A stretch of DNA of 64,000 nucleotides from Psychromonas aquimarina ATCC BAA-1526 (GTDB lineage Bacteria; Pseudomonadota; Gammaproteobacteria; Enterobacterales; Psychromonadaceae), in the NCBI RefSeq assembly GCF_000428725.1, contig NZ_AUAM01000010.1:1-64000 (forward strand), read 5' to 3'. The position numbers and the translations under genes are program-made. The notes beneath the pieces are model-generated. The model searched no databases. It was not told the origin of the DNA and was given only the letters and a program-made list of their open reading frames with translations. Positions 39,240-56,621 of the stretch are shown here, in pieces (the stretch's first letter is position 1; each line of letters opens with the position of its first letter).

Positions 39240-39285
39240 AATACGTACAACAACGGCGCGCGGCACCTATCCTTATTTGTTAGAG
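39240..39285 (-). repeat. Partial integron attC-like site at the end of the DUF1993 gene
   Basis: The plus strand reads CTATCCTTATTTGTTAGAG ending at 39285. The same 16-base arm (CTATCCTTATT-GTTA) forms the right half of the complete site at 47609-47670. The TAA stop of the DUF1993 frame lies inside the GTTAGAG box, as at the other sites. The left arm is short and imperfect (GTACAACAACG), so the site looks eroded. Confidence 0.5.
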
Positions 39286-39624
39286 CTGTTTCACCAAGCT
39301 GAAACCCGAAGGATATGAATGAATTCCATCGTAGTCTCCTTTACTTAGCGCCACACCATTCGTTTTTGCTATCGCATAAACCATGCTTATGTGAAACAAG
39401 AAATTGGGCAATATATATTGGTAAATGTACTGTGACTGGCACAACTCGACATCTGAAGTGCCTGCTTTATCCTTGATGAGTTTTTCATCACCAAACTCTT
39501 TAACGTCCGGCATTTCATTAAGATATTTCACTGTTTCGGTAAGTTGTTTTTTTACCGCTTCTTTGCCCGTATGGTCTTCGAAAAATGAAACAACCTCTCG
39601 CACCAATTCGCCCCCTAACAGCAT
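39280..39624 (-). pseudogene. DUF1993 family protein, 5' truncated
   Basis: The 114 residues match the C-terminal two thirds of DUF1993 proteins (normally about 165-170): CQSQYIYQYILPNFLFHISM, then YAIAKTNGVALSKGDYDG. The N-terminal helices are missing and a TAG lies four codons before the first ATG, so the gene is cut at its 5' end. Its stop codon falls within an attC-like box, suggesting it was a gene cassette. Function of the family is unknown. Confidence 0.65.
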
Positions 39625-39791
39625 TTTAAACTGCTAAATTTGTGAAGAACAAACTCTCCACTTGAGAATTATTGTTAAGAGGCTTACTCAACAACAATAA
39701 CTCCTTATACAAAATGCCTCACGAACTTCGTATTTGTCTGCTGCATAAATTTATTACCTTTCTCTGGTAATAGCAGCACAAAGCATGCAAA

Positions 39792-39806
39792 CTATTATCA
39801 TTATCA
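39792..39806. promoter_or_regulatory. Candidate Fur box upstream of the SDR-like gene
   Basis: CTATTATCATTATCA matches 12 of 15 positions of the Fur core TGATAATCATTATCA (by eye), and lies about 20 bp before the ATG at 39825, where binding would block transcription. Confidence 0.45.
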
Positions 39807-39824
39807 ATTAAAAAAGAGGTGTAT

Positions 39825-40457
39825 ATGAAAACTATCGCAATATGGGGAGCAGCAGGCAGTTTAGGGGCGGCAATGGTTGAATACTTTCATAAGCAAAACT
39901 TCACTGTAATTGGAATAGCCAGAAACCCGGCAAAAAATCCACGCCTGGTTGAGCTGGGAATTAAAACAATTACTTGTGACGCCACAAATCAAACACAGGT
40001 TAAAACAGCTGTTGACGCCATACCTGCAGATGCATGGGTTGTTTCTACTATGGGAAATTTCCAAGCTGATGTTTACGTCGATTACATTGGCCACAGGTAT
40101 TTAATCAACTCACTAGAAAAAAGAAATATTAGCCGGTTTCTAATGATAACCTCATTAGGCTGCGGGGATTCATGGCAATATTTATCAGAGCGTTCAAAAA
40201 GCGGCTTTGGTGCAGCGGTTAGAGAAAAATCGTTAGCTGAATCCTGGCTTCAAAGCAGTCGTCTCGATTTTACTATCTTACGGCCCGGCGGTTTAAAAGA
40301 CGGCAGTGCTACTGGAAAGGGAAAGCTTTCACAAAATGTAGAAGAGCACGGATTAATTAATAGAAGTGAAGTGGCAAGGCTGACCCACCAGCTCCTAAAC
40401 AGCAGCGAAAGCATCGGACAAGTCTACCAATGTGTAGATCCGACTTTACGCTATTGA
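39825..40457 (+). CDS. NAD(P)-binding atypical short-chain dehydrogenase/epimerase-like protein
   Basis: The start at 39825 (MKTIAIWGAAGSLG) is chosen after AAAAGAGG; the frame also opens at a GTG six bases earlier. The product has 210 residues. The Rossmann motif GAAGSLG is at about 8-14, RNPAKN after strand 2, CDATNQTQV, and ILRPGGLKDG. It belongs to the NAD(P)H-binding (NmrA/SDR_a5-like) group, which often lacks a Tyr-x3-Lys active site. It is the only plus-strand intact gene between 39.2 and 52.7 kb. Possible iron control via the upstream Fur-like box. Confidence 0.8.
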   Translation: MKTIAIWGAAGSLGAAMVEYFHKQNFTVIGIARNPAKNPRLVELGIKTITCDATNQTQVKTAVDAIPADAWVVSTMGNFQADVYVDYIGHRYLINSLEKRNISRFLMITSLGCGDSWQYLSERSKSGFGAAVREKSLAESWLQSSRLDFTILRPGGLKDGSATGKGKLSQNVEEHGLINRSEVARLTHQLLNSSESIGQVYQCVDPTLRY

Positions 40458-40686
40458 TTTGATAAATGTCTAAATAATTTAGGAATTTCAGTATAGCTTA
40501 ATCACTTTCAATATTTTTCAATAATTTTAAGATGCTTCAGCAAATTCCTTACGTTACGGCACAACACCATACTCTCTTTGGATCTTATGATATGTGCCGT
40601 TAAGAAACAGTTGTTTAATTCCCGGTTAAAATCTTTTATTTTTTCCTTATAGTCAGCAGCAGGAACTTAACCCAACTTTTTTTGTT

Positions 40687-40716
40687 GTAACAAAAAAACC
40701 ACGGTTGTGGGCTTTT
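40687..40716 (-). terminator. Probable terminator of the 40735-41226 gene
   Basis: On the minus strand, AAAAAGCCCAC / GTGGTTTTTTT pairs around a short loop and ends in a T-run. The spacer 40458-40686 is AT rich with nothing else seen. Confidence 0.6.
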
Positions 40717-40734
40717 TACTTAACACTCAGCTCA

Positions 40735-41226
40735 TTAGTGAGTAAGTTGCTCCTGTTTTTGTTGTTTCTTCTTTTCCCATGTTTTTATCCCCATTTTTTC
40801 TCCAGAGCGAAACGCAAGATAGGCTATTCCAAAAGATAAAATAACAGCACCGAACATTACTGTATAGAGCCCCCAAGAATGAGGGATTTCATTGAGAAGG
40901 GAGGGATAGAAAAGAAACATCAACACGCCAAATACAAAGAAACTCACAGCTCCCCATAGCAGTATCGCAAGCCACCTATCCTTGGAGGCAATCATTTCTC
41001 CACTTTTCCCACCATAAAGAGCCCCTACCACCATTGCCGGCAAGATTGTTGAAATAAAGCCAGAGCTAGGCAGCTCTTTATCAAGCAAGTATTCTGCAAG
41101 GTAGATTAGTAATCCGGCACAAACCGATGCAGCACAAAGCCAAAACACAATAGCAAAAACTGAAGGAGCCTCTTTTAGCGTACTTACTTCTTGGTTAGAA
41201 TCTGGTGACTCGTGAATAATATCCAT
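40735..41226 (-). CDS. Four-TM membrane protein, resembles ABZJ_00895 family
   Basis: The product has 163 residues. Four hydrophobic segments (about 22-44, 55-72, 83-107, 118-140), a GALYGGKSGEM loop between 2 and 3, and a Lys/Gln-rich C-terminal tail. The layout recalls small ABZJ_00895-type membrane proteins, often found in integron cassettes and genomic islands; this is from memory and not verified. Function unknown. Confidence 0.6.
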   Translation of the reverse strand: MDIIHESPDSNQEVSTLKEAPSVFAIVFWLCAASVCAGLLIYLAEYLLDKELPSSGFISTILPAMVVGALYGGKSGEMIASKDRWLAILLWGAVSFFVFGVLMFLFYPSLLNEIPHSWGLYTVMFGAVILSFGIAYLAFRSGEKMGIKTWEKKKQQKQEQLTH

Positions 41227-41309
41227 AATAACTTCCTTATAAAATTTAAATAGAACTGTAGAATTACGTCATTTTCAGAAAAAACACCCTTTTGCTAAAA
41301 TAACGCTAG

Positions 41310-41404
41310 TTAAGTAAAGGCAGGGCCCCATGCGTTGAATTGTTTAAAATCATTCACTTATGATTTAATAATGATTAGATGTTCTCAATTTTGTTTTAAC
41401 TTTA
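41310..41404. repeat. Imperfect inverted repeat, copy A (downstream of the 41402-41986 gene)
   Basis: TTGAATTGTTTAAAATCAT and ATGATTTAATAATGATTAGA form the core of a fold, with AGTTAA ends. It aligns over about 75 bp with the sequence after the next gene (42068-42158). The stop codon of the neighbouring gene touches its right end. Confidence 0.55.
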
Positions 41405-41986
41405 TTGAATTTCCTCAGGCGAATAGAATGATAATTCATTATTTTTTACAAAAATAAATTCATCAATTCCAGCTTCTGAAGGAACCACAATTACATGGCC
41501 ATCTGCCACCAACTCTGCAACAGAGTTATCACTAGGGGGTATGGATAGAAGCGAAAAGGATGGCGTACTAAATCGAGAAAAATCAGAACGCAGCGCATAA
41601 ACCGTACTATCTTCATTAGCAATATCTAAAACAACGATTAACGCTTCCTCTATTTCATTGTTATTCTGGCTTTTTGCCCAATACTGTTTTTCATTTACAC
41701 TATTTGGCACATGAAATTCACCTCTATATTGAACAATAGTTGCTTCATCTAATAACCCATCTCCATTAAAATCTCCTTTAATAAAATGTGTTGGGATAAA
41801 CTTTAAAGGTGAAAGTTTATCTTGTAACCTGTCTCTCTCATATTCGCCTGAATTTATACTACAGCCCACAATGGCCAATAATAAAAATATATATAGATGT
41901 TTGATTGGCCCACACTTAACGAGAGTTGATTTAAGATAAGGTGCAGGACAATTAAATCTACTTAAAAAGACCGATTTACAGCCCAT
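41402..41986 (-). CDS. Putative lipoprotein with an Asp-rich calcium-type loop
   Basis: The product has 194 residues. A hydrophobic stretch ends in AIVGC at about residue 42, so the true start is probably internal and the annotated N-terminus too long, but no better start codon is visible in frame. GDFNGDGLLDEA (about 71-82) is a dockerin/EF-hand-like Asp loop, as seen in FG-GAP-type surface proteins. Not otherwise recognised. Possibly a cassette gene. Confidence 0.55.
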   Translation of the reverse strand: MGCKSVFLSRFNCPAPYLKSTLVKCGPIKHLYIFLLLAIVGCSINSGEYERDRLQDKLSPLKFIPTHFIKGDFNGDGLLDEATIVQYRGEFHVPNSVNEKQYWAKSQNNNEIEEALIVVLDIANEDSTVYALRSDFSRFSTPSFSLLSIPPSDNSVAELVADGHVIVVPSEAGIDEFIFVKNNELSFYSPEEIQ

Positions 41987-42067
41987 TTGCTTTACTTATG
42001 AAATCCATTTTCATTCCCCATGAAACTGTTGCCACGCATGTTTTATAATGTTGTTTTCGTTCTTTTA

Positions 42068-42158
42068 GTAAAAAAGATGGGACATCCATATATTGAATTA
42101 CTTAAAATAATCTGCTTATGATTTATCAACTATTGGATGCCTTGATTTTGTTTCTAAC
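42068..42158. repeat. Imperfect inverted repeat, copy B (downstream of the 42154-42987 gene)
   Basis: It shares TTGAATTA-TTAAAATAAT, CTTATGATTTA and GATTTTGTTTCTAAC with copy A. GGCATCC and GGACATCC-like arms pair with one unpaired base, a feature shared with attC sites. The TAG stop of the gene lies inside its right arm. Confidence 0.55.
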
Positions 42159-42987
42159 TGAGGGCCTCAATTTGGGCATACTGGCTGCTCGTTATTTTCA
42201 AATTGCGAACAAATGTATCGGTGTCTTTACTTTCCTTACCCTTATCGTCCACCGAAACGTTAACGGTTGTTAACGATAAATAATTGCTGTTGTCACAGCA
42301 ATTGCAGCGATTAATTTCAATTACAGTACTTGCCAGGCTAGAGTCGCCGGCTATTTCCAAACCTGGCACCATATCAACCAGGCCTTCTTCCAGCTTACGC
42401 TTGAAAGCCTCACCATCGTCTATTGCTTGAAAACCAGCTATAGTTTGAGCATTCTCAACCCACTTCGAGCACTGCTCGCAAAAAGGCGTAGACTCTACAT
42501 GGACATAAGCAACCAGCGCACTCCCGCCTATTACTATTAATGCCTCTATAGCCCATATGATGTAAAGAGCAAACCCTGTCGGCGTCCACCCGAAAATACT
42601 CCAGGCGCCTGTTACAGCGATTAATTCCATAGTTGGTAATAATTCATCAGGATGCACAAAGAAAAGCGTCTGGTCTGAACTAGCATAAATCCAGGCAACC
42701 CAACCGGCATATTCAGCTAACAAACCGGCAGCCAGTCCAATCAAAAAATAAAGCCCAGGTCTTCGCGCTTTGCCAATTTTGCCCCCCATACCAACCGCCA
42801 TTCCGGTAAGTCCCCCAAAACCTAGGGTGATGAAAAAATTAATATAAATGAACGGAATATAAGCAATTGCATAACCGTAAACTGTACTTAGCAGCAAAGC
42901 AGCAAATGCTCCAAAGATAATCATTAAAAGAATTGAAGTTGCAGTCGCTTTTCCTGAATGAACAAAATAGGGGGTCTCGTGTGTCAT
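42154..42987 (-). CDS. Four-TM membrane protein with C-terminal Cys-pair domain
   Basis: The product has 277 residues. TMs lie at about 16-40, 46-68, 78-98 and 133-160, with Gly-rich loops (GFGGLTGMAVGMGGKIG). The cytosolic C-terminal domain has FCEQCSKW and, 60 residues later, RCNCCDNS, a possible zinc ribbon. Not recognised. Same strand as the neighbouring cassette-like genes. Confidence 0.6.
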   Translation of the reverse strand: MTHETPYFVHSGKATATSILLMIIFGAFAALLLSTVYGYAIAYIPFIYINFFITLGFGGLTGMAVGMGGKIGKARRPGLYFLIGLAAGLLAEYAGWVAWIYASSDQTLFFVHPDELLPTMELIAVTGAWSIFGWTPTGFALYIIWAIEALIVIGGSALVAYVHVESTPFCEQCSKWVENAQTIAGFQAIDDGEAFKRKLEEGLVDMVPGLEIAGDSSLASTVIEINRCNCCDNSNYLSLTTVNVSVDDKGKESKDTDTFVRNLKITSSQYAQIEALS

Positions 42988-43274
42988 CGTTGTTCCTTAA
43001 CTATAAAAATATCGAATTGTATTCGACAGAAAACTTCCATATTCCCGCAGGAAAAAACCTATCAACAATATGTAAAAAAAATGCACCTTACATTTTTTTG
43101 TGACCTTTATCAAATGTTTATATTTTATGTATCGGATTTATCTATAGCAGAAAGGCGGGTTAGCACTGTATATATGGCGGAAACACGGCATGCAGCAAAA
43201 GCAGGAAAGATTGAGGATTAGGTTTTGTGTGTTTTATGGAATGGTTAAACGCTCGCCATCAAGACCGGGAGAAC

Positions 43275-43403
43275 AGTAATGGGGATTTTCCCTGGTTGAC
43301 GTAAACCTTCATCAAAGCAAACGTAACGACACTTTTTTTAAAACTGAATACGAGAATGTGCCGATGCGCTTAAAGCGTGGATGCCGTTACCAGAGCTCGC
43401 TTA
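43275..43403 (+). pseudogene. Remnant of the phage protein at 52724-52981 (C-terminal part)
   Basis: The sequence matches the last 40 or so codons of the intact paralogue (FSLVDV, GKRNDTFFKTEYE). A 2-base insertion (GAATACGAGAATGTG against GAATACGAATGTG) shifts the frame, and the 5' part is missing. Confidence 0.75.
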
Positions 43404-43414
43404 AGCAGAATAAA

Positions 43415-43656
43415 ATGACAGTAACTATAGATACAACGGATGAATTCGGCCTAGAACGCCTTTTAATGTAAATGAGATCAGTAAATTACAGGGCGTTGGA
43501 GGTACCTACTTCAGCCGAAAAATAATAGCAAACACCAACTTTTTAGGGATAGCCCCGCCGGTTCGCCTTTACGGTAACGGCTCACCCAAATACCAGTTAA
43601 AAGATGTGTTGAAGTTTATTGAAAGCAGGAAAGAGCCAGCCGCACCAGCAGGTTAG
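43415..43656 (+). pseudogene. Frameshifted copy of the AlpA/Xis-like gene
   Basis: It starts MTVTIDTTDEFGLERL like the intact gene at 52992. One base is missing in the following codons (GCCTTTTAATG against GCCTTATTAACG), which destroys the frame. The 3' part still encodes the conserved PPVRLYGNG region when read in the restored frame. Confidence 0.8.
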
Positions 43657-43828
43657 GACTATCAGGGATCAAAACCTTCTCTTTTACTCTAAAAGGCAAA
43701 ACATAAGACTTGATCCTAACAGCTTCTGGCTGTTCAGATCTTATTTTCGCTTACCAGCAATCCATTACGTTCAACAAAACTGACGACCCAGTGGCTAATA
43801 TATGCGCCAATGTGTTGAGTTCGGATTG

Positions 43829-44368
43829 TTAAAATTTATAAGAAGCTGAAAACATCAAAACTTCAGGAGTTAAATCAGTATTAATACCAAAATTACTGCC
43901 TAGAGGGTATACAGTTAACCCTACTCCAGCTATAGGTATTACTCCACTAGAAGAACTAACTGAAGGAGTGAGAGTAGTATATGTATTTTCACCAGACTGG
44001 ACTCTAATTGAAGTAGTATCATAATAACCAGTTGCAAAACCTACAAACGCTCTTAATGATAAATAGTTATTCACATCATAATCAGGAACATATGTTACAA
44101 AGAAGGAAGTATCATCCCAACTGTTCTTACTAACATACACAACACTAATATCCCAAAGTTCAATACCTATTGAGGGATTATTCTCATTAAGGTATTTATG
44201 ACTAGTCTTTTGGAAATGGTAAGACTTGATGCCTAAAAATAGAGTAGGATCAGCACGACTCCAATCACCAATTTGAAAAACATCAGCATCAAAAACAGAA
44301 GCTTGAGTATTCGAATTACTCCCTAAGAAAAGTACACCAGCTAGACTAACTAATTTCAAATTATTCAT
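43829..44368 (-). CDS. Small outer-membrane beta-barrel-like protein
   Basis: The start at 44368 (MNNLKLVSLAGVLF) is chosen because it gives a proper signal peptide, with cleavage near NTQA (about residue 23). The longer frame to 44497 adds an unrelated hydrophobic leader. The 179-residue product has alternating aromatic/polar strands, an YLNENNPSIGIELW segment and a C-terminal Phe (SASYKF), all typical of outer-membrane barrels. The closest remembered patterns are PagP-like or deacylase-like barrels, but I do not see their catalytic residues clearly. Confidence 0.65.
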   Translation of the reverse strand: MNNLKLVSLAGVLFLGSNSNTQASVFDADVFQIGDWSRADPTLFLGIKSYHFQKTSHKYLNENNPSIGIELWDISVVYVSKNSWDDTSFFVTYVPDYDVNNYLSLRAFVGFATGYYDTTSIRVQSGENTYTTLTPSVSSSSGVIPIAGVGLTVYPLGSNFGINTDLTPEVLMFSASYKF

Positions 44369-44967
44369 GGTACAACTCCTCGACTTAATGGTTATTAAAA
44401 AGAAGCAGTGGATCACAGAATATAGGAATAGAATAGAGTATAGAAGCAATGTGAGAAACTTACCAAAAAAACATAAATAAAACATCGACTTGAACATAAT
44501 GTTTTACCTCATAATGATCCAGTTGCGACAGCGAAAATTATGGAGGCAGTAAATGACTGGCCATGGACGCCCCTATTTCAGTCAAAAAACAGTACCAGAG
44601 AGCCGCTTTTTAGAGATAGCAATAGGCCTGCACAAAACGATTCTGCGCATGAGTGGTTAATGGTTTTTAGGTGACTGGCCGGGGATCAAGAACTCTCGTT
44701 CACGGCTGTAGAGCAAGCTCAATGATTTAATTAACTCAATCACTTTAGGATAAGGCACACCTGGTTGCCTTTGGGGGTTTAAATAACGACAGGATCTCAT
44801 TTTAGCTTTTGCCTATATAACCTAAATAGTTCGGCTAGCGTCTTACATTCCCGTTTGTATTTTTCTTGTGATGCTCAAAACCTTTAGCAAATGAAATCAT
44901 GGAGCGAATTAAACGACAGCTCAGGTTATTCTGCAATAACCGGTGAAAAGAAAAGATAAGAAACTCT
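44369..44967. other. Spacer with a third phage excisionase remnant and a hairpin
   Basis: 44552-44625 (CGCCCCTATTTCAGTCAAAA, then AGCCGCTTTTTAGAGATAGC) matches the middle of the AlpA/Xis-like gene at 52992-53234. GGTTATT / AATAACC (44924-44941) is a 7-bp hairpin 27 bases after the cdsA-like stop, with no T-run. Nothing else was seen. Confidence 0.6.
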
Positions 44968-45888
44968 TTATAAGCTCAGATAATAATAGAAGAAAAGCGG
45001 GCTTGATACACACAAACTATCAAGCCTGTCAAGTATCCCGCCATGTCCGGGAAGAATAGAGCTGGTATCTTTAACATTAAAATAACGTTTCAAAGACGAC
45101 ATGAAAAGATCACCACCACAACCACCAACAGCTATGATAAGCGAAGCGACAAAGGACTGGTAAAGAGAAAGAGGTACCAGCATAGGATAAATAGCCACCC
45201 CGACAGCAACAGTAGAGATAACTCCACCGACATAACCTTCTAATGTTTTATTCGGGCTCAACACTCGAACCACCTTATGTTTTCCCAGAGCCTTACCCCA
45301 AACATACTGAAATGCGTCATTAAGCTCTGTAAGGAGTACAAGGTAAAGAGCAGCCCCGGCTGAAGAGTAATTATCTGCTGGCAGGAGATTAATAACAACA
45401 GCGGCATGACCAAGCATAAACCCGCAGATTAGTACGCCAACAGTTAACTTAAAAGAGAACCGCAGGACCTTAGAATACCCAAGAGTGTATTTAACGACCA
45501 AAACAATAACACATGGAGTTGCGGCAGCGATTCCCCAAAAGTAATAATAGCTATACTGACTAATTACAAAGTAGTGGGCACAGATAAGTATGAAACAGCA
45601 TATAATAGGATAATTATTAAGACGAGCTCGGGAAAAATGACAAAACTCACTGAATGCCAACAGCGCAAGAGCACAGAACAAAGCTATATAAATAAACTTT
45701 GAGAACGATATTGCGAGAAAGAAAAGAAAAACGAGTATCCACCACGATCTCATACTCGCCAGATGCTTCACTCCTGTTTCGACGGAAAATTTCGGCCGAA
45801 GCGATACAATGGCAACAGATCCCGCCAGGAGCGTAACAACAATCCCGGCCATAACATACCCTATTTCAATTGTAAGCATCTGAAACAT
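44968..45888 (-). CDS. Phosphatidate cytidylyltransferase (CdsA-like paralogue)
   Basis: The product has 306 residues and about eight TMs. The C-terminal family signature is intact: SSLKRYFNVKDTSSILPGHG, then GGILDRLDS. LTELNDAFQYVWGKALGKHK and LSPNKTLEGYVGG are also typical. It makes CDP-diacylglycerol from phosphatidate and CTP in the inner membrane. Its place in an accessory region, away from the usual ispU-cdsA-dxr order, suggests a paralogue like E. coli YnbB rather than the housekeeping enzyme. Confidence 0.85.
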   Translation of the reverse strand: MFQMLTIEIGYVMAGIVVTLLAGSVAIVSLRPKFSVETGVKHLASMRSWWILVFLFFLAISFSKFIYIALFCALALLAFSEFCHFSRARLNNYPIICCFILICAHYFVISQYSYYYFWGIAAATPCVIVLVVKYTLGYSKVLRFSFKLTVGVLICGFMLGHAAVVINLLPADNYSSAGAALYLVLLTELNDAFQYVWGKALGKHKVVRVLSPNKTLEGYVGGVISTVAVGVAIYPMLVPLSLYQSFVASLIIAVGGCGGDLFMSSLKRYFNVKDTSSILPGHGGILDRLDSLCVSSPLFFYYYLSL

Positions 45889-46064
45889 ACAATTAATCCT
45901 GATAATACAACAACAAAGAATGATGATATTTCAACATTGTAGCAGTTCCTGATGAATATTTAGAAACCGCATACAATGAGTATATGTGCCTAATAGTATG
46001 GATTACCAAGCAGGCACTAGTGATTGTTATATCAGGGAGTTATCGAGCGTGTATTCTGCGTCCC

Positions 46065-46350
46065 TCACTTTACAGGTTGTGTCGCGACTACCGCACAACG
46101 GTAACCGCCTTTGTAGTCACTTTTAGCTGTAACCTTATCTATTGACCAGCTACCCGTCATTTATTTCGGAAAATTATTAGCTAAGGTTAAAAAACCCTCG
46201 GCAACCAGAAACGGATCACCGGGCAAATCCATTCTCACACTTGAACCTTGGCGCTTAACTTTAATCAGTTCATCTCTACAGACCTGATTTGCGCTCTCCG
46301 CAGACTCATACGGCTGGCGTAACTTCTTAACCGACGCAATGCCGCAGGTA
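46065..46350 (-). pseudogene. P2-like phage late control protein D (tail) remnant
   Basis: The minus frame reads RQPYESAESANQVCRDELIK, then DLPGDPFLVAEGFLTL, then MTGSWSIDKVTAKSDYKGGY and CAVVATQ before TGA at 46065. This matches the C-terminal end of gpD-type proteins (AE-rich, GDP-LVAEG, G-W-I-KV, GGY order). A TAA (46161-46163) interrupts it and the 5' part is missing. The rest of the 45889-46648 spacer contains one copy of the 60-bp repeat (46381-46440) and no gene. Confidence 0.6.
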
Positions 46351-46380
46351 ACTTAGTGCTCTTCTCCTGTTGCTTTTGCC

Positions 46381-46440
46381 GTTATTGTGCGCATCAAAGA
46401 TCGGCTAAAAAAGCTGTCTCGGCAATGTCACGGTTTTAAA
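46381..46440. repeat. 60-bp dispersed repeat, copy 1
   Basis: GTTATTGTGCGCATCAAAGA ... AAGCTGTCTCGG ... TCACGGTTTT. About 50 of 60 positions agree by eye with 47341-47400, and more weakly with 49133-49194. Confidence 0.7.
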
Positions 46441-46648
46441 GCAAATATTAGAGACATATAGAATTCCACTAATACCCTGTATTTTTAATGTGATTATTGG
46501 GGATTAAGACAAGGGAGAAAAAGGTAATTTGAAGTGCACCAGGAGCAATAACTTACACAGTTAACTTTGGATGGGGGATCTTACCGTCAGCTTAACGGTG
46601 AAAAATTGCTGGCTATACTTAGCGATAGAGGAGCAAAGCCAGCGTATT

Positions 46649-47156: not shown

Positions 47157-47174
47157 ATAAGCCACCTATCTAGT

Positions 47175-49249: not shown

Positions 49250-49322
49250 ACACGTCCCAATTCATACTCATGTAGGGTAATCGGCGAGCTTCAGCGAGTC
49301 CGTGTTGACCCGTTTGTTATGC
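49250..49322 (-). repeat. Integron attC-like arm after the tail-collar gene (second arm degenerate)
   Basis: On the minus strand GCATAACAAACGGGTC starts four bases after the TGA stop, followed by GGACTCGCTGAAGCTCGC, a sequence typical of Vibrio-type attC left halves. The expected partner (GTTATGC) is not intact; a GCCTAAAAAACAAAAGGC stretch near 49230 may be its decayed form. Confidence 0.5.
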
Positions 49323-49325
49323 AAA

Positions 49326-50153
49326 TCATTCTTTTTTGCAATATAGTAGTGCTACATTTTTAGGTCTATTTTCGATTTCACCAACAGAGTTAGTCTTGGC
49401 AGCTTTAGTCCAACCAGCAGGTCCTTGGCTGTCACTAAAATCATATCGAGTACCACTGGGTGAAGGAAGTCCATCTTCTATTCCATATCTTGATATTATA
49501 TGAGCCGGATAACCTCCATGATGATGGTGCACTTTAATAGCATCACTTTGTAAACTACCTACTAATCTTGCTCCAGCAGGATCAATAGAGCTTCCAGATT
49601 TATCAATACCACGTATAAACCGACCATATGCCTGAACATATTCGCTCCACCCTTCTGGGCATGTTTGTCTTTCAAATGCGAGCACACTCCCCTTTGGTAT
49701 CGAAACTCTTGATAAGATGGTTTCTTGATTAAGCAGATCTAATTTCTCTATTTCTACTTTCAATGTCTTTCTTAGTGCATCATCAGCGAAATCTGAACCA
49801 ATTTCCTCGCTAACTTTTGTTACAAGTTCTTTTATTGTTTTAACAATTTCAGGTGAAGTAGCTTGTTGTTGAACAGAATCTTGAATTTTACTTATAAGTT
49901 CATTTCTTACCTTTTTGTCAATGCTGTATTCCAGCATTTTGGCATCAACTAGACTATCCATTCTTTTTTCAAGCTTATCCATAGAATTTCCGAACAAGAA
50001 ACTGAAAACAATACCAGCAGCTGTAAAAATAATTCCAACTGCCCAAGTTAATTGTTTGAAATGTGACTGGAGAAAGTCTCGATACTTAGTTTCTTCAGAA
50101 GCTAAAACTCTTCTTACTTCTAACTCTACTTGATCTTTGTCCATTGGTTCCAT
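49326..50153 (-). CDS. Membrane-anchored protein with phage tail-collar-like C-terminus, cassette gene
   Basis: The product has 275 residues. The N-terminal region (1-30) is charged, followed by a TM at about 36-55 and a long helical/coiled region (about 56-145). The C-terminal domain begins IPKGSVLAFERQTCPEGWSE and continues GRFIRGIDKSG, DPAGARLVGSLQSDAI, VHHHHGG and ENRPKNVALLYC. This is the sequence order of tail-fibre/collar receptor-binding domains, including the H-x-H metal site. AAGGAA precedes the ATG. The combination with a membrane anchor is unusual. Confidence 0.75.
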   Translation of the reverse strand: MEPMDKDQVELEVRRVLASEETKYRDFLQSHFKQLTWAVGIIFTAAGIVFSFLFGNSMDKLEKRMDSLVDAKMLEYSIDKKVRNELISKIQDSVQQQATSPEIVKTIKELVTKVSEEIGSDFADDALRKTLKVEIEKLDLLNQETILSRVSIPKGSVLAFERQTCPEGWSEYVQAYGRFIRGIDKSGSSIDPAGARLVGSLQSDAIKVHHHHGGYPAHIISRYGIEDGLPSPSGTRYDFSDSQGPAGWTKAAKTNSVGEIENRPKNVALLYCKKE

Positions 50154-50200
50154 TTACAGATTCCTTATTTGAAATAGATTGTTTTTCTGCTTGTTCATTA

Positions 50201-50276
50201 CATAACGCAGCCAGCAGGGATCGAAAAACCAGAACGAAAGAGCATTTTTGGGCCCTCTCAAAGATGGCTTGTTATG
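50201..50276 (-). repeat. Integron attC-like site 2 (best example)
   Basis: CATAAC (50201-50206) pairs with GTTATG (50271-50276), and AGCCA (50209-50213) with TGGCT (50265-50269). The intervening spacers differ by one base (GC against T), giving the bulged two-box stem expected of attC. Length is 76 bp. The stop of the AlbA-like gene (TAA, 50272-50274) lies inside the right box. The next cassette gene starts about 48 bp beyond. Confidence 0.85.
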
Positions 50277-51300
50277 CCCTACCATCTTTGAGGATTGCAG
50301 TAGCAATTTCATGCTCTTCATTTTCAGAAAACGAATTATTAAGGGCCTTTTCAGCAAATAGCTCATATTTTTTCTGGATCATTTCAAACGATGTATCGAT
50401 CTTGAATTGATATTGCCTAGTATTCGATGCTCCAACAGAGCCAGATATAACCAACTCTCTATCAAAAGGAGGTGCTAAAGAAATATGGACAATAAAAGGC
50501 TGCAAATTTGCCCCGGGAGGTAATCTAACTTCTGGTTTGGTGATAGCGCTTAATTGGCGGTCAAATTCCCACATGCCTGTCCAGTTTTCTCTATCAGGTG
50601 TTTCAAACTCTACCTGACAGTTATCACCTGGCAATTGCTCCAATAGGCAAATCGCAAACAAATCTTGTGCAATGCCAGGCCCTTCATTATGCAACATGGT
50701 TCCAAATGAAACTTTTAACTCACCTAAGTTCATAGTCGGTTTCGGCAAAATAAAATGATGAAACACGTGTGGTTGTGGTCTTCGCCCAAACATTCCAGCT
50801 AAAACATCATGGGGAGCAGGAACAAAATCAGAGCCCGCCCTAATATAATACTGCTTCTTCTGTACCATTTGATGAGGCGTAGAATTACTCTTAGGTATTA
50901 ATGTAACGACATACCCAGCACCAGCTTCAGTTTCAATCGCGTATTGCTCTACCCCTGAATGTGGAGGAATAGTGCAACCAGACACGACTCCCTCCAATAG
51001 GCTTAAAAATTTCTTAGGATCTTCCAGAGGGACAAGCGTGTGCGCTACATCTGCACCGGTATTATTATTTGAGCAATCTACTCCCCAAACAACAACCCCA
51101 CCTTCCGAGTTACCAAAACCAGAAACACACTTTGAAAAATTATTTCGATCATTATTATGAAGCTTACGCCCTGCGCCGTTATCTGCAGATCTCTTGAAAT
51201 CTAAAAAAAGCTCTTCCGACGCCCTGTCTTCGACAAAGGACTCTATGGCCTCCAATCCTTGATCTTTTATTCTGTTAAATATATCTCTACAGCGTTCCAT
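50272..51300 (-). CDS. AlbA_2/Schlafen-type putative ATP- or DNA-binding protein, cassette gene
   Basis: The start at 51300 (MERCRDIFNRIKDQG) is chosen because the longer frame runs through the attC-like end at 51325. The product has 342 residues. The AlbA_2 domain (about 20-170) shows EELFLDFKRS, NNFSKCVSGFGNSEGGVVVW and QKKQYYIRAGSDFVPAPH. The C-terminal half is unassigned. AlbA_2/Schlafen proteins occur as regulators and in phage defence; a defence role for this cassette is only a possibility. Confidence 0.75.
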   Translation of the reverse strand: MERCRDIFNRIKDQGLEAIESFVEDRASEELFLDFKRSADNGAGRKLHNNDRNNFSKCVSGFGNSEGGVVVWGVDCSNNNTGADVAHTLVPLEDPKKFLSLLEGVVSGCTIPPHSGVEQYAIETEAGAGYVVTLIPKSNSTPHQMVQKKQYYIRAGSDFVPAPHDVLAGMFGRRPQPHVFHHFILPKPTMNLGELKVSFGTMLHNEGPGIAQDLFAICLLEQLPGDNCQVEFETPDRENWTGMWEFDRQLSAITKPEVRLPPGANLQPFIVHISLAPPFDRELVISGSVGASNTRQYQFKIDTSFEMIQKKYELFAEKALNNSFSENEEHEIATAILKDGRA

Positions 51301-51324
51301 TGTGCTTCCTCTCACCCTCGTGAG

Positions 51325-51345
51325 GCATAACAGCTTTATAGACGG
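51325..51345 (-). repeat. attC-like arm upstream of the AlbA-like gene
   Basis: GCATAACAGCTTTATAGACG. The same arm (GCTCTAACAGCTTTATATACG) occurs at 56293-56313, also just upstream of a cassette gene. The opposite arm is missing here, probably lost with the prophage insertion on this side. Confidence 0.5.
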
Positions 51346-51520
51346 CACTATGCACGAAAACACTTGTCACCTATCTACATTTAATCAATAACTATCAACA
51401 ACAATAGACCATAATAAGTTTACGGCTATTACACTCTATTACACGCTCTCGATAAGGGACAAAGATGGGAGACTCAGAACACTACGCTCTATTAAATCAA
51501 AATGTAGTGATCGCTCACCA

Positions 51521-51892
51521 CTAAGCCACCTCTCTCATAAACAAACATGCATCTACCCAGGCGGTGGCGGCTTTTACTAATACATCGACGCGTTTACGGT
51601 TTACCTTCTGCTCGGTGCCGGCGGAGAGTACCCGGGCAACATGAGATGCGTTACCGTTGCTGAAATAAAAAAGCACCAGGGCTTTGGCCATTTCCCGATC
51701 GCGTATTTTCAGCTTGGCGATTATCGAATCAATCAGCATCGCTTCTTCTTCGCTGAACAGTAAATCGGGCTTCTTCACTTCTGAAAGAACGTCCTGAAAC
51801 ATCGGGCTGGTAAAGCCGACTGGAGCACCACTGCCCTGCTTGGCCCATCTCGCCCACTGAGATAATAACCATCCCGTATTATTTGAAATCAA
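51521..51892 (-). CDS. Phage antitermination Q-like protein, possibly 5' truncated
   Basis: The product has 123 residues from a TTG; an in-frame TGA lies five codons upstream. GWLLSQWARWAKQG at the start is the Trp-rich pattern of phage Q/DUF1133-type late regulators; the rest is helical. It overlaps the decayed integrase end by four bases. A prophage remnant. The family call is moderate. Confidence 0.45.
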   Translation of the reverse strand: MISNNTGWLLSQWARWAKQGSGAPVGFTSPMFQDVLSEVKKPDLLFSEEEAMLIDSIIAKLKIRDREMAKALVLFYFSNGNASHVARVLSAGTEQKVNRKRVDVLVKAATAWVDACLFMREVA

Positions 51893-52719
51893 CTGGCCCC
51901 TACTTCAGAAAGTCTTGGCTTTGGGTGAGTTTTAAAAATAAAGCCCGAGTTCATCACCCCGCGATGTGTCATTAAAATCATCAATGCCGTATCAGAAAGC
52001 GGCAGGTGATGCGCCGTTTTGGTTTTGGTGTTTTCCGCAGGGATAATTCTGTAGCTGTTTGGACAACATCGGCACCGCATTGGACTGCAGCGCACAGCCT
52101 TTGGGTAAAATCTTCGCATCGGTAAAATTAGAAAACTTAATCTCAGCAATCGGATTAAACGCAATCAGTTTCAGGGTTCGCGCCTGTTTGCACGCCTTTT
52201 TCAACACAGACAAAATCAAACGCACCGTCGACAGTTCATATTGTTCCTGCAACGGCCAGATGAGCAGTTCATCAAGCAGCGCATGATCTAACTCTTCAAT
52301 CAGCACATGTCCAAGGCGCGGCTGCAGATGCACTTTCAACACAGACTTAATCGAACGTTTACGCTTAAGCGATAAAAAACGATTCACAAGCACTCGGTTT
52401 TCATACCAGGTTAATAGATCCGCCACACAGTCCCATTCCGGTAAAACCACACTCGCATGAGGCATCAGCGCATATTGCGCCAACACATCAGGGAAGAATT
52501 TCAGCACACTGGCGGTTTTAACGGCCGGATAATTGCCCAGTTTTTCCACGAAGACTTACCGTTCTGGTGAAGTACCAAAAACCATGAACCACGCGCCTCG
52601 GATTTAAAACGAAATCTAAGCTCAGGATGGCGGGCATCACGCAGCGTTCCCACATCTGTATCACCGGCATAACGTTTAATCAACGCATCCGAAATTTTAA
52701 CTGTGAGTGTTTTACTCAT
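51889..52719 (-). pseudogene. P2-type phage tyrosine integrase, frameshifted and internally deleted
   Basis: The first piece starts MSKTLTVKISDALIKRYAGD (52719). After a frameshift near 52550 it continues with LGNYPAVKTASVLKFFPDVL and a core-binding domain (LLTWYENRVLVNRF; DHALLDELLIWPLQEQYELS). A second shift near 52050-52100 leads to ENTKTKTAHHLPLSDTALMI, the beta-hairpin Lys region of the catalytic domain. The first catalytic Arg region is missing between them, and the final R-H-Y box is absent. Nonfunctional. Confidence 0.8.
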
Positions 52720-52723
52720 AGAA

Positions 52724-52981
52724 ATGGAAGAATTTGAATCAACTCTAATCACTGGCTGGCAGCCGGCTAAAAACGCACCGAAAGACAGCATTATCACTGC
52801 TTGCTTTGATGACTGTCCGATACCTGTTTCTGCAACATGGAATGAGCCCAAACAGCAATGGGTATTTTCCCTGGTTGACGTAGACCTGTATCAGGGCAAA
52901 CGTAACGACACTTTTTTTAAAACTGAATACGAATGTGCCAATGCGCTTAAAGCGTGGATGCCGTTACCAGAAATAGCTTAA
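52724..52981 (+). CDS. Small phage-type protein upstream of the AlpA-like gene
   Basis: The product has 85 residues from ATG 52724. It includes GWQPAKNAPKDS, a WQP..APKD pattern found in small phage proteins (DUF551-like), and ends KAWMPLPEIA. It diverges from the integrase with only four bases between the two start codons, and lies 10 bp upstream of the AlpA-like gene. A partial copy exists at 43275-43403. Confidence 0.55.
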   Translation: MEEFESTLITGWQPAKNAPKDSIITACFDDCPIPVSATWNEPKQQWVFSLVDVDLYQGKRNDTFFKTEYECANALKAWMPLPEIA

Positions 52982-52991
52982 GGAGAATAAA

Positions 52992-53234
52992 ATGACTGCA
53001 GCAATAGATACAACAGATGAATTCGGACTAGAGCGCCTTATTAACGTAAATGAAATCAGCAAATTGCTGGGCGTTGGGCGCACCTATTTCAGCCAGAAGA
53101 TAGTACCAAACACCAACTTTTTAGAGATAGCCCCGCCAGTTCGCCTTTACGGCAACGGCGCACCAAAATACCAGTTAAAAGATGTTTTGAAGTTTATTGA
53201 AAGCAGGAAGAACCAAGCAACGTCAGCAGATTAG
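52992..53234 (+). CDS. AlpA/Cox-type excisionase-like DNA-binding protein
   Basis: The product has 80 residues. A winged-helix/HTH: LINVNEISKLLGVGRTYFSQ, then APPVRLYGNGAPKYQLKDVL. AAGGAG precedes the ATG. Such proteins act as excision factors or repressors in P2-like phages and islands. Two decayed copies lie at 43415-43656 and 44552-44625, so this gene has been duplicated repeatedly within the island. Confidence 0.7.
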   Translation: MTAAIDTTDEFGLERLINVNEISKLLGVGRTYFSQKIVPNTNFLEIAPPVRLYGNGAPKYQLKDVLKFIESRKNQATSAD

Positions 53235-53252
53235 CACGTTCAAGAATCAAGC

Positions 53253-53279
53253 TTTTGCCTTTTTATCTAAAAGGCAAAA
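53253..53279. other. Hairpin after the AlpA-like gene
   Basis: TTTTGCCTTTT / AAAAGGCAAAA, an 11-bp perfect stem with a 5-base loop. It lacks a T-run after the stem in either direction, so termination is uncertain. It is conserved in the duplicate near 43680-43705. Confidence 0.5.
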
Positions 53280-53407
53280 CGCAAGATTTGACCCAGCCCC
53301 CCTTAGCAATCAATCAAAAAGGTATGGGTGTCCAGCTCTTTTGGTGCCCCTATTTATTCCAGTAGCTTAGAGTCTGGTTTCATTTAAAGCGCCCTAAAAG
53401 ACGTGAT

Positions 53408-54379
53408 TCATTCGACATGTATATATAGTCCAATGCCATTATCACTCTGAGTCCGCTCCAAGGTTAGACCGAAAACTTTAAACATACTATCAATCACTTT
53501 TACTATCTCATCGAATGCGTCGTAGCTTTCAATAAACCCTTGCTCATATGACTCTGTAACAACTTTAAAACTAATTCCCAATTGCTGGAGCGTATCTGAT
53601 AACTGACTTTCCTTAAGACTCTTAGTTATTTCGGGAAAGCTGCTTTCTAAGTCGATTCCGAAAGCATCAACATATCCGAAGGCGTATGCATATGAGTTGG
53701 AAATAAGCTTAATTCTATCTTTTACAGCTATGTACATTTCATCAAGAAGAATTAAGCGATACTGATACTTACGAACCAAAGACTCGATTTCATTTGGGAC
53801 TTCCTTGATTATCGTATCTAGTTGTTCGAGAAATAGGTCGACTGTTTCTTCAGGAGCTGACGACGCCGATTTCAGATTAGCTAGATACTCTGACCAAGAT
53901 CTTGTAGCTGACATTAATAGAGCATCATCATAAGCATCAATTAAAAGAGAAGCGTCTAATTGCGCTAAAACGTTCTTCTCGTGAATATGGATCAACTCAT
54001 GATGAATTCGGTGTAAAACAACAGATATGTTGTCTTCTCTAATTTCACACCTACCGTCATTATTGAACCACTCGAAGAAAAAATCAATACCGAGTACAAG
54101 CGTAAACTCTTCACGAGCCCCTTTCGTTACTAACTGCGCTATAGCTATCGCTTGTTTTGAGTCAGTAAATGAAGAAGGTGATATATGACCGTATCCCTCA
54201 GTCACTTTCTTTAGCGCACTTGCAAAATCGAAAGAGATCAAGATTATCTTTAAACCAGTTAAATCAAGTTGATGCTGCTTATGTAAAGCTCGAATAGCAC
54301 TCATCACGGCATTACCCAAAGAATTTGCATCCGTTTCACTAGCAAAGTCTTCAAGCGAAATAGTAAGATCTTGTTCCAT
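53408..54379 (-). CDS. HExxH-motif protein, putative metallopeptidase, cassette gene
   Basis: The start at 54379 (MEQDLTISLEDF) follows GAGGAAAATGCG. The longer frame to 54478 runs through an attC-like site. The product has 323 residues. HRIHHELIHIHEKN (about 127-140) contains HELIH, an HExxH zinc motif, with a further His/Glu after it. No transmembrane segment or signal, so cytosolic. Family not recognised. It starts 24 bases after attC-like site 3, as cassette genes do. Confidence 0.65.
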   Translation of the reverse strand: MEQDLTISLEDFASETDANSLGNAVMSAIRALHKQHQLDLTGLKIILISFDFASALKKVTEGYGHISPSSFTDSKQAIAIAQLVTKGAREEFTLVLGIDFFFEWFNNDGRCEIREDNISVVLHRIHHELIHIHEKNVLAQLDASLLIDAYDDALLMSATRSWSEYLANLKSASSAPEETVDLFLEQLDTIIKEVPNEIESLVRKYQYRLILLDEMYIAVKDRIKLISNSYAYAFGYVDAFGIDLESSFPEITKSLKESQLSDTLQQLGISFKVVTESYEQGFIESYDAFDEIVKVIDSMFKVFGLTLERTQSDNGIGLYIHVE

Positions 54380-54402
54380 CGCATTTTCCTCAAAAAACCT
54401 AT

Positions 54403-54505
54403 CGCTTACAACAATGGCGTGCAGGCTTGGCTGTATTTTTGCGGATTTTCTTTTACAAAAATAGCGCCACGACTGCAACGTCCGTTTGCTTGTACTTGTT
54501 ACAGC
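54403..54505 (-). repeat. Integron attC-like site 3
   Basis: GCTTACAAC (54403-54411) and GTTACAGC (54498-54505) are the outer boxes. Inside them, GGCGTGCAG and CTGCAACGTCC pair with two unpaired bases (A and T), and a long loop contains AAAATCC/GGATTTT. The plus-strand right arm CGTCCGTTTGCTTGTACTTG is of the Vibrio-type attC kind. The site sits between two genes with 11 and 23 bases of spacing. Confidence 0.65.
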
Positions 54506-54516
54506 TTTTTTAAATA

Positions 54517-55458
54517 TTAAAATAATGTTTGCTGAATAATAGGTTTTAAAAGAAGGTTCTTGTCGACGCCATCTGCATTTCCAACCAAGAAAGGACTTTC
54601 AGGATCATGGTTCAATTGATTTTTTTTAACCATATTTTCACTAAATGTCGCATAACAGTATGAACAACCATGTAAACAAGTATTGTATTGCCCTATATCA
54701 ATACTCTTAATACAACCACATGCTTCCCTTTGACCAGGATCTTTTACAGAAGAAAAATCTAAATTAAATAATTCTTTAAGTAGCTTTTCATCAATACATT
54801 TACCTTTTTTTATACCTATGCTTTCTAAATTAAGATCCTCTGCACAAGTAGAAATTTCCATACCATTTTTAGCTGCAACCTCTTCCATATAACGACTTAA
54901 ATCTTTCAACTCATCTGTTTTAGTTAAAATATCATAGTATTCTAAATCAGTTACAGCATTCAAATTTCGCTCTGTTTTTTGATATAAGTCAGCAAAGCTA
55001 ATCACAACTTTTTCTGTTTTTCCTGATAGCATTTGTGCAATTTTATTAAAAAGCCTTTTATGCTCATTGAGGGAAGTGACGTTAGATAATAAAATAGGGT
55101 CATATCGCCAAATTACTTTATCTTTTCCAATCAAGTCACTTAGTTCCGTAAACGTCTTAATTGCTTTATAAGGACTAGGCAAATGTTTTTCAATTGGTTT
55201 TGAGTACCCTGTAATTGTGTATTGGAAATAATATTTATAATTTAAACGGTCTAACTCTGGCAGATGTTTTATCAATTTTTCAGGGTTTCTAGTCCAAAAA
55301 ACAATAGCATCAACATCAGAAGGTAAAAGTGAGACCCTTTTAATCTGGTTAGCGTTATATGGATTTCTTGTTAATAAAAAACCATCTCTAATGCGATTCA
55401 TAAACCAGCGATGATAAAACGCGGGAATATCTGTTCTTCGGCTAGCGCTTATTATCAC
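54517..55458 (-). CDS. DUF1848 protein with C-terminal radical-SAM-type cysteine motif, cassette gene
   Basis: The product has 313 residues. The N-terminus MIISASRRTDIPAFYHRWF is the DUF1848 signature, followed by DAIVFWTRNPEKL and VIWRYDPILLS. Near the C-terminus CLHGCSYC (C261, C265, C268) is a CX3CX2C cluster, with two more Cys (C247, C249) just before. This is a radical SAM-like iron-sulphur motif placed at the end rather than the beginning of the barrel. Reaction and substrate unknown. It starts three bases after the methyltransferase-like gene. Confidence 0.8.
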   Translation of the reverse strand: MIISASRRTDIPAFYHRWFMNRIRDGFLLTRNPYNANQIKRVSLLPSDVDAIVFWTRNPEKLIKHLPELDRLNYKYYFQYTITGYSKPIEKHLPSPYKAIKTFTELSDLIGKDKVIWRYDPILLSNVTSLNEHKRLFNKIAQMLSGKTEKVVISFADLYQKTERNLNAVTDLEYYDILTKTDELKDLSRYMEEVAAKNGMEISTCAEDLNLESIGIKKGKCIDEKLLKELFNLDFSSVKDPGQREACGCIKSIDIGQYNTCLHGCSYCYATFSENMVKKNQLNHDPESPFLVGNADGVDKNLLLKPIIQQTLF

Positions 55459-55461
55459 AAA

Positions 55462-56247
55462 TCACTTCCTATACTCAAAAACAACAGTTTGCCCTGTTGA
55501 AGTCAACGGTTCAATAGCAAGCATGGGAGGAATTGGAAAAACCATTTCATTTTCATTTATTTGCAACCAGTTATACCCTGGGTAACCTTCGAAGTAATAC
55601 TGGTTAAAATTTGGCAAATATTTACTTACTGAGCTATGGAATTGGTCTCTTCCCATTTTATTAGTATTAATATCTATAAAAACAATTAAAGCACCAGCTT
55701 TTAGTGTTTGTTTAACAGCGTTTTCTAAATTAAGCAGAAAAACAGGGCCGTTACCGTTTTTATAGAGTGTAGAGAATACTTTAGATATAAATACAACATC
55801 AGTATTTGAAAGATCAAATGGGATAGTTAAATCCGATAAAGGATAAGTACAATTATCGTCATTAGGACGAGCTAGATTCCAGCACTCACCACTATCCAGA
55901 CCGACATAATTTATTTGAGTTTGAATATTCTGATTTTGGAAATATTGCTTTAAAGCATAATAATCAGGGGAAAAACCACACCCGAGAGACTTAACATTGA
56001 GAGATTTAGATAAATCAAATTTATTTTTAAATTTTGAAAATGATAAATAATGATAAATTTCGCTCGCATATGCAAGGCCAAACCTAAGTACATATGTATT
56101 CATTTTTTTGTTACAGTTATATGTATCTGCTCTGTTGTAATAATCATCTTTCAAAGAGGAAAGACAGTTACATGCCGTTCCATCAGTTTTGCAACATTGA
56201 TAATTTGGTAATGCTTCATTACATTGATTTAATGCTCTAGTTAACAT
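55462..56247 (-). CDS. SAM-dependent methyltransferase-like protein, partner of the DUF1848 gene
   Basis: The product has 261 residues. The N-terminus is Cys rich (YQCCKTDGTACNCLSS, then NCNKKMNTY). A Rossmann methyltransferase core follows: VKSLGCGFSPDYYALKQYF (motif I), YVGLDSGECW, and DVVFISKVFSTL (motif IV-like). The family is not recognised. It is first in a two-gene cassette; the DUF1848 gene starts three bases after its stop. Confidence 0.65.
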   Translation of the reverse strand: MLTRALNQCNEALPNYQCCKTDGTACNCLSSLKDDYYNRADTYNCNKKMNTYVLRFGLAYASEIYHYLSFSKFKNKFDLSKSLNVKSLGCGFSPDYYALKQYFQNQNIQTQINYVGLDSGECWNLARPNDDNCTYPLSDLTIPFDLSNTDVVFISKVFSTLYKNGNGPVFLLNLENAVKQTLKAGALIVFIDINTNKMGRDQFHSSVSKYLPNFNQYYFEGYPGYNWLQINENEMVFPIPPMLAIEPLTSTGQTVVFEYRK

Positions 56248-56621
56248 TTAAACTCCATATTTATCTTGATGAAATAGTATAAATTTGCGATAGCTCTAAC
56301 AGCTTTATATACGTCAGAGTGACGCGATTGTTCCGTTGTATATATTAATGCCCCACAACATCACAACAACCACAAAGTCAAAGACTTAGTAATGTTTAAA
56401 GCAGAGTAGTGCGTCGACCAGTGCGTCACTATGGAAGAAGCAATACATCCAAACCCATATCCTTTTAAAAGGTATGGTTAATTGCGAGATACTATACGAA
56501 ATAGAAAATAAAAAATATTACACCCCATTACATCATCACTGAAAAATCATTAGGTTATAAAAAAGGCAGGTGCGAGGTAAGAAGCTTACCTCTGAAAATG
56601 ATGACTATATATAGAAGGGAT
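56248..56621. other. Spacer with an attC-like arm upstream of the methyltransferase cassette
   Basis: 56293-56313 (GCTCTAACAGCTTTATATACG) is the same arm as at 51325-51345. The matching second arm is not visible before the integrase remnant. Nothing else is recognised in this spacer. Confidence 0.5.

Follow-up and report, generated by a model that had tools for sequence, protein, structure and literature searches.

The first 64,000 nucleotides of contig NZ_AUAM01000010.1 of Psychromonas aquimarina ATCC BAA-1526 (the window; C7:1-64000, from a draft assembly that totals 5.53 Mb and is divided among 141 contigs) carry, between about 39 and 56 kb, what are probably the remains of at least four integrons that bear an attI site and no integrase, non-autonomous units that would have been loaded in trans by a single integron integrase (IntI). 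Judging from the sequence, this region appears to consist of at least four short rows of minus-strand gene cassettes, each starting at its own head, that is, a copy of attI plus upstream region, and the row starts lie at about 43.0, 48.83, 51.33, and 56.30 kb. This reading is carried by heads that are repeated in the genome with a common inner border, by cassettes lying on the correct side and strand, by crossover switches between species and by an intact IntI encoded elsewhere in the genome. A first-pass annotation of the same DNA had proposed a single decaying cassette array. Its integron-derived and decaying cassettes are borne out by the attC sites and attI heads found, with wear showing in two of the four cores and in three of the six attC sites, but the four attI-like heads divide the region into separately headed rows. 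Hereafter, C-numbers denote contigs of the same genome, L-numbers fetched loci, and G-numbers genomes of relatives.

Heads of the window

Heads were sought in the fetched loci and the window with nhmmer profiles of three types, trained on 8, 4, and 3 copies, with the window in no training set. By sequence, attI at the row starts is represented by three profile-found heads and one isolated core:

43017-43201, plus strand: head of type A, attI and the region upstream of intI; core worn, no intI; type-A profile E 2.9e-29.
48829-48968, plus strand: head of type C; core partly worn; type-C profile E 1.7e-22; 78% identity over 146 bp to the C6 head.
51328-51344, plus strand: attI core of type B with a diverged outer part, at the start of the next row; one mismatch to TAACAKCTTWTWAKACG.
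56296-56383, plus strand: head of type B, made up of an outer part and the attI core TAACAGCTTTATATACG (56297-56313); without intI; type-B profile E 1.3e-14, whole-genome DNA search E 1.4e-9.

Over 170 bp, the type-A head shares 74% identity with the DNA that immediately precedes the intact intI gene of C71. The core at 51328-51344 was not recovered by the type-B profile; within two mismatches, TAACAKCTTWTWAKACG occurs in the window at 51328 and 56297 only, against 0.20 expected and with as many occurrences in one of 100 shuffles, the pattern having been written after both cores had been seen. These two cores had been described before as partial attC arms near 51325 and 56293, and the heads at 43017-43201 and 48829-48968 had been overlooked, as had a worn attC core at about 46594-46653. 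The cores are intact at 51.3 and 56.3 kb and worn at 43.0 and 48.8 kb, and the head set of this window is ageing.

The integrase gene

The first-pass annotation saw no intI, which holds locally: a search of the whole genome with the TIGR02249 family (cut-off 265 bits) gave no row on C7, so that none of the four window heads has an adjoining integrase gene. The cell, on the other hand, possesses an intact full-length intI on C71 (454 bits), the sole intact copy, and a broken one on C24 in three pieces, behind a head 98% identical; the remaining eight TIGR02249 rows of the genome reach at most 72.2 bits. Fourteen control genomes also match this family at E<=0.001, none of them reaching the cut-off. 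The best solved relative of the C71 protein is IntI4 of Vibrio cholerae (PDB 2a3v), which aligns over residues 1-319. Ahead of the C71 gene, an SOS-like box CTGT-N8-ACAG, resembling the LexA consensus, can be read by eye. Matches to intI at E<=1e-60 occur in 16 of the 21 genomes searched, that of P. aquimarina included, and Psychromonas ossibalaenae has two full-length intI genes. The assembly is probably split by an insertion sequence where C7 and C71 end, at window positions 1-341 and L009:8761-9101, two stretches that are identical over 341 bp and transposase-like by eye.

Heads in the genome and in the genus

The C71 stretch between the first cassette and intI (~180-220 bp, comprising attI and the intI upstream region) recurs at places where no intI stands. 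A search with the C71 upstream region gave 17 places of its own genome at E<=0.001, one of them being the region itself, and 23 rows at E<=1. In all, 26 heads were counted in the genome, 16 of type A, five of type B (one of these from the far end of C24), and five of type C, the core at 51328 being left out of the count; 24 of the 26 have no adjoining intI and two have one. Most type-A heads (11/16) start at profile positions 2-4, where TAAC corresponds to the attI crossover read from the other strand, and their outer ends vary, giving lengths of about 45 to 217 bp. In the wider comparison, DNA matching the C71 head is present in nine of 21 genomes, the own one included and all of one genus, with nine matches in G001 and ten in G007.

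In the feature map, the heads face rows of genes and attC sites on the correct side. At 20 of the 26 heads, an open reading frame (ORF) of the opposite strand has its ATG no more than 160 bp from the crossover, which holds for 32% of places chosen at random in these loci. A correctly oriented attC from the list lies within 2.6 kb, again at 20/26, compared with 18% of random places; the attC list used here held the window site at 47609 and neither that at 54397 nor that at 50200. Among the type-A heads, all found by DNA search regardless of attC, 11/16 have such an attC, those without being C23b, the one of the window and three on the 3.2-kb contig C103. The order on C103 is head-gene-head-gene-head, and a gene followed by a head in the place of attC occurs both there (orf86, then a 45-bp head) and on C23 (orf157, then a head). 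In the window itself, no gene was seen to have a shortened attI behind it where attC would be expected. On C14, a type-A head (L072:534-700) abuts sequence that, by eye, resembles the terminal part of an RNase P RNA gene with its terminator.

The sites that the heads face are themselves widespread. Two covariance models of attC were built, R1 from 19 sites (four from the C71 and C24 arrays, 15 from relatives; window excluded) and R2 from 73 sites, none from the window; calibration of R1 was short and its E-values are rough. Over the whole genome, R1 gave at least 63 rows at E<=10 and at least 46 at E below 0.002 (four of them training sites) on many contigs, and R2 at least 46 matches at E<=1e-4. 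Matches to R2 are present in 20 of the 21 Psychromonas genomes examined, own included. These counts are lower bounds as 150 candidates were scored per genome, and the window site at 54397 lies outside those rows.

The heads contain an internal inverted repeat (GGAAAACTTCCGTGTTTCCAC / GTGGAAACACGGAAC), seen as reverse-strand self-matches; in relatives, a large number of copies stop close to the second of these repeats, at profile position 183-186, some matches there span that repeat alone and many of the weaker C71-head matches cover just one inverted repeat. These features would suit a transposable element resembling a miniature inverted-repeat transposable element, standing near cassettes by chance. 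We hold this to be quite improbable because the inner border of 11/16 type-A heads is the attI crossover and not the end of the repeat (no search was made for target duplications), because heads face cassettes, and because, as described below, a single cassette follows a head in one genome and an attC in another, with the joint falling at an identical base.

The length of what is repeated also bears on a second alternative, in which IntI inserted cassettes at ordinary genomic attG sites and heads were not needed. A short consensus suffices for attG, whereas about 45-217 bp of attI and upstream sequence are repeated here, and attG insertion, which likewise places cassettes away from the main integron, leaves this repeated head sequence unexplained. 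We therefore regard it as unlikely for the headed rows, and it stays an option for rows without a detected head among the fetched loci, e.g. C65 and C21. In PMC12444791, clusters of attC sites lacking an integrase (CALINs) are reported away from the main locus in Xanthomonas, and attG insertion is mentioned there from earlier work.

Junctions compared with relatives

P. ossibalaenae is the closest named relative by the sbcB gene adjoining the region (91% amino acid identity, among the records listed), and it carries the same type-B head next to the same sbcB flank: 56295-56804 matches L084:2701-3223 at 84%, with L084:2702-2816 as the ortholog of the 56.30-kb head. The homology ends two bases before the TAAC core at 56297. 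Past this junction, P. ossibalaenae has a different ORF (L084:1827-2723, minus strand), adjoined by an attC at L084:1756-1826 (R2 E 0.0035) that is 94% identical to an attC of C30 in P. aquimarina. No blastn match at E<=1e-3 was obtained between 39201-56294 of the window and L084:1-2701, and when the two genes that open the 56.30-kb row were compared with L084:1-2701 by tblastn, a single match at E 0.20 resulted, which we count as none.

A second comparison involves the orf86 cassette, 88.9% identical between C103 and G001 (L164). On C103 it is preceded by an orphan head and in G001 by an attC (L164:2952-3049, E 1.8e-14), the switch occurring at G^TTATAC. The C103a head together with orf86 is also present in P. 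ossibalaenae (L197, 85%), where the sequence behind orf86 is different. Thus G^TT junctions are observed at 56295-56297 against L084 and, elsewhere in the genome, on C103 against L164, and such switches between species are what site-specific capture at heads without an integrase of their own would leave. The junctions alone do not date these events, and an earlier intI beside a head is compatible with them. Another candidate locus, C22 as an insertion between ybaB and recR, was dropped: ybaB was confirmed, but no other C22 protein tested was RecR, and the locus thus yielded no empty site.

The compatibility with an earlier intI leads to the alternative that deserves most attention, in which the genome once held many complete integrons, duplicated or acquired, each of which lost its intI by decay, so that the heads would be relics without any action in trans. 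The broken intI kept on C24 behind its head is what such decay would produce, the three head types suggest several lineages, and the worn window heads at 43.0 and 48.8 kb agree with it. On the other side, heads 91-93% identical to that of C71 (on C17 and C14) show no trace of intI, with no tblastn match to IntI at E<=10 and no row in the family search. Furthermore, the outer ends vary while 11/16 type-A heads start at the crossover, and an orphan head shared between species has different cassettes behind it in each, which still agrees with an intI standing beside the head at the time of uptake. We regard this relic scenario as possible, if rather doubtful.

attC sites and cassette genes of the window

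Six attC sites, three of them worn, lie in the window:

54397-54504, minus strand: attC closing the DUF1848 cassette; R1 22.0 bits, E 0.0079; R2 21.5 bits, E 0.025.
50200-50277, minus strand: attC; R1 14.6 bits, E 0.5; R2 14.2 bits, E 1.3.
47609-47670, minus strand: short-type attC closing the row behind the type-C head; not seen by R1 or R2.
46594-46653, minus strand: worn attC core overlapping the YoeB stop codon; R2 16.7 bits, E 0.33, model positions 24-79; R1 12.4 bits, E 1.8.
49260-49322, minus strand: half attC, read from the sequence, with the R'' arm kept and R' lost; R2 10.4 bits, E 9.8.
39240-39290, minus strand: half short-type attC behind the DUF1993 gene, aligning to the short attC family on the R'' side.

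The three complete sites of the first-pass annotation are all present where it had placed them, but only that at 54397-54504 is supported by covariance; instead of the three significant matches within about 10 kb that it had looked to for support, R1 returned one. The partial arms that it saw near 39240 and 49316 proved to be the two half sites.

The site at 54397-54504 has 81-84% identity over 38-53 bp to attC sites of C24 and C65, and 54393-54504 folds on the plus strand into a long stem (z -2.68). The classification of 50200-50277 as attC rests on structure and position: its outer boxes CATAAC/GTTATG are paired on the plus strand with unpaired bases present, the DNA fold of 50194-50281 on this bottom strand reaches -11.3 kcal/mol (only slightly better than shuffles, z -1.63; opposite strand z -0.12), and the site sits on the stop codon of ORF 50272-51363. 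Its score is not significant as R1 and R2 give matches of 17-18 bits within unrelated genes, e.g. 33734-33828 (plus strand, 17.3 bits, R1) and 28730-28830 (minus strand, 18.2 bits, R2). Such chance-looking matches score like weak true sites, and 14-18 bits alone were thus not taken as evidence. The worn core at 46594-46653 has 78% identity over 51 bp to a real attC at C100:742-841.

The short-type site at 47609-47670 gave no match with R1 up to E 10 and none with R2, and it is the top two-box hairpin of the window in a box-plus-arm scan, with a score of 51 that was reached in none of 40 simulated 64-kb sequences (first-order Markov; maximum 47.6). It has relatives 77-83% alike at C14:28-98, C100:2922-2990, C23:57444-57500, and C6:26766-26815, and the C14 copy lies directly behind a gene that starts at a head. 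The plus-strand fold of 47605-47674 has z -5.95, with the outer boxes unpaired in the minimum-energy structure. The half site at 39240-39290 folds no better than shuffles (z +1.33 and +2.08).

One could ask whether the hairpins of the window are simply terminators or repetitive extragenic palindrome-like sequences beside unrelated genes. Terminator-like sites are more numerous in the region than expected (25 against 14.5), other palindromic repeats are present and two of the three named sites fail the covariance test. Against these stand the relatives of the short attC at four other places, three heads at E 1e-29 to 1e-14 and the species switch at 56295, and we consider this explanation very improbable indeed. 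No Rfam match at gathering thresholds and no tRNA was found in the window.

From 39.2 to 56.3 kb, the gene layout is one of short, unrelated genes, mostly on the minus strand. This agrees for the most part with the earlier description of a minus-strand gene set, the exceptions being plus-strand ORFs at 39819-40457 and 52992-53234. The genes are as follows:

55462-56247, minus strand: first gene behind the 56.30-kb head, 261 aa, ATG 49 bp from the crossover; weak methyltransferase-like PADLOC-DB match, E 1.2e-7.
54517-55458, minus strand: second gene of this row, DUF1848 protein; Pfam PF08902 E 1.4e-104; PADLOC RTasDUF1848 E 1.2e-56.
53408-54379, minus strand: cassette gene after the 54397 attC, start assumed at ATG 54379; no Pfam match.
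50272-51300, minus strand: AlbA_2/Schlafen-domain cassette gene, start assumed at ATG 51300; Pfam PF04326 E 1.2e-7; stop codon within the attC box.
49326-50153, minus strand: cassette gene, 275 aa; no Pfam match.
48432-48809 and 47665-48432, minus strand: two genes behind the type-C head, with lipoprotein-like starts by eye; no Pfam match.
46649-47165, minus strand: YefM/YoeB-type toxin-antitoxin pair; Pfam YoeB_toxin E 4.6e-42, PhdYeFM_antitox E 4e-21.
42154-42987, minus strand: first gene behind the type-A head, 277 aa, ATG 23 bp from the head border.
41402-41986, minus strand: next gene of this row; relative in G001 at L169:3221-3798, 75.6%.
39280-39624, minus strand: DUF1993 gene, C-terminal domain part only; Pfam PF09351 profile positions 71-160 of 161.

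The G001 relative of the gene at 41402-41986 sits on the cassette side of another head, ~0.5 kb from it. Two of ten window proteins have PADLOC matches at E<=0.01 (the DUF1848 and methyltransferase-like proteins), and the name of the PADLOC model ties DUF1848, in the pair at 54517-56247, to a reverse-transcriptase defence system.

Other repeats of the region

Three copies of one prophage or satellite remnant (pieces of 73-91%) lie at 43272-43716, 44559-44903, and 52851-53294. The piece at 44628-44903 is found in P. ossibalaenae between an integrase remnant and sbcB (L084:3266-3544), a placement indicating that the order has been broken up in P. aquimarina. Phage-type tyrosine recombinases or their apparent fragments occur near type-B heads (51889-52549, 56622-56816, L048:3258-4241, and L195:5028-6313), and a ATTACACYCYATTACA-like motif is seen by eye beside 51.4 kb, 56.5 kb, and C30; an attachment region may be common to type-B heads and these elements. 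Copies of a GGGACATCC...GGATGTCC repeat are present at 41328-41401 and 42070-42160, and also on C103, C64, C30, and in G001 (L168), several of them near heads. Considered as a second type of attC, the element was dropped for having no AAC/GTT boxes by eye. Finally, a 114-bp repeat has three copies between cassette rows (46323-46436, 47283-47396, and 49076-49189), 63-73% identical to a reference copy.

Discussion

The usual description of an integron has a single attI adjoining a single intI, and clusters without an integrase have been read as degraded integrons. The present system stands apart from known ones in how many attI heads it has, in their position at the beginning of dispersed rows and in their recurrence within the genus. 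Like CALINs, the Psychromonas rows are attC cassettes without an adjoining intI, and they differ by keeping an attI head. With the sedentary chromosomal integrons of the Vibrio type, they share an IntI4-related IntI, long attC sites and the SOS-like box before the C71 gene, the difference being that here one intact intI coexists with rows dispersed over many sites of the chromosome, a large number of which have a head of their own. Cassettes of the Delta-attI type, as described in PMC12901181, resemble the heads by variable-length attI copies anchored at the crossover and by the attI-gene-attI order seen on C103; they are uncommon and lie inside mobile integrons, whereas here attI copies start dispersed chromosomal rows and recur in a genus. 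According to the same source, IntI1 excises attI-gene-attI and shortened-attI cassettes, which occur in integrons of classes 1 and 2. Our literature search, which covered few subscription journals, found no prior description of such headed integrase-less rows.

In the mechanism that we favor, IntI from the single intact C71 gene would act in trans, recombining the folded attC of circular cassettes with the scattered attI heads at the G^TT point, and a short row would thus begin at every head. PMC12444791 states that CALINs can be mobilised in trans by a functional IntI. The heads would arise and move as attI-type units, each an attI copy that is preserved from the crossover for a variable distance outward. 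Some of them stand behind a gene in the place of attC, and IntI would presumably also spread the heads. Heads may in addition supply a promoter; a promoter scan gave counts near expectation in the region (52 found, 53.6 expected) and around the C71 head (2 and 1.4), and no promoter claim is therefore made.

Several points weigh against this reading. Recombination in trans is something that we infer from sequence. Five of the 16 type-A heads start beyond profile position 4, their inner border being worn or unclear, and crossover positions were set by hand. Six of the 26 heads have no near ATG ORF and six no listed attC, and type-B and type-C heads were first seen in loci picked for attC or heads, which makes their association with attC partly a matter of selection. 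Within the window, a single attC is significant by covariance and the remaining sites do not reach E 0.1, the two heads with damaged cores may be dead, and the head at 48829, found by profile and local blastn, is absent from the whole-genome DNA search (for which the C2 head was the query; neither this head nor that of C41 is listed at E<=0.01). A comparison of C30 with P. ossibalaenae L195 as a clean cassette swap had to be rejected, the head lying at different distances from the shared flank. Moreover, the genome is split into 141 contigs and C71 carries a run of N (L009:556-1475), so that something may be missed at gaps and contig ends.

These findings would have consequences for the search for integrons. 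CALINs are proposed to be degraded integrons in PMC9024848, in which attI outside class 1 is said to be poorly described and not detected by IntegronFinder 2.0; heads like these would thus be invisible to that tool. If the present reading is true, the CALINs of databases deserve a renewed search for attI, and heads with equal outer flanks but different first cassettes would offer a direct test of CALIN origin. It is possible, and we propose it tentatively, that P. aquimarina houses a network of satellite integrons: cassettes would be loaded and unloaded by one IntI at two dozen attI heads, and the heads would themselves multiply in the manner of non-autonomous elements, with no integrase of their own. 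Heads multiplied and used in trans would give each cell many docking, and possibly expression, positions, and with such a network, the cassette pool would be spread over the chromosome with many first positions, possibly promoters, available at once.

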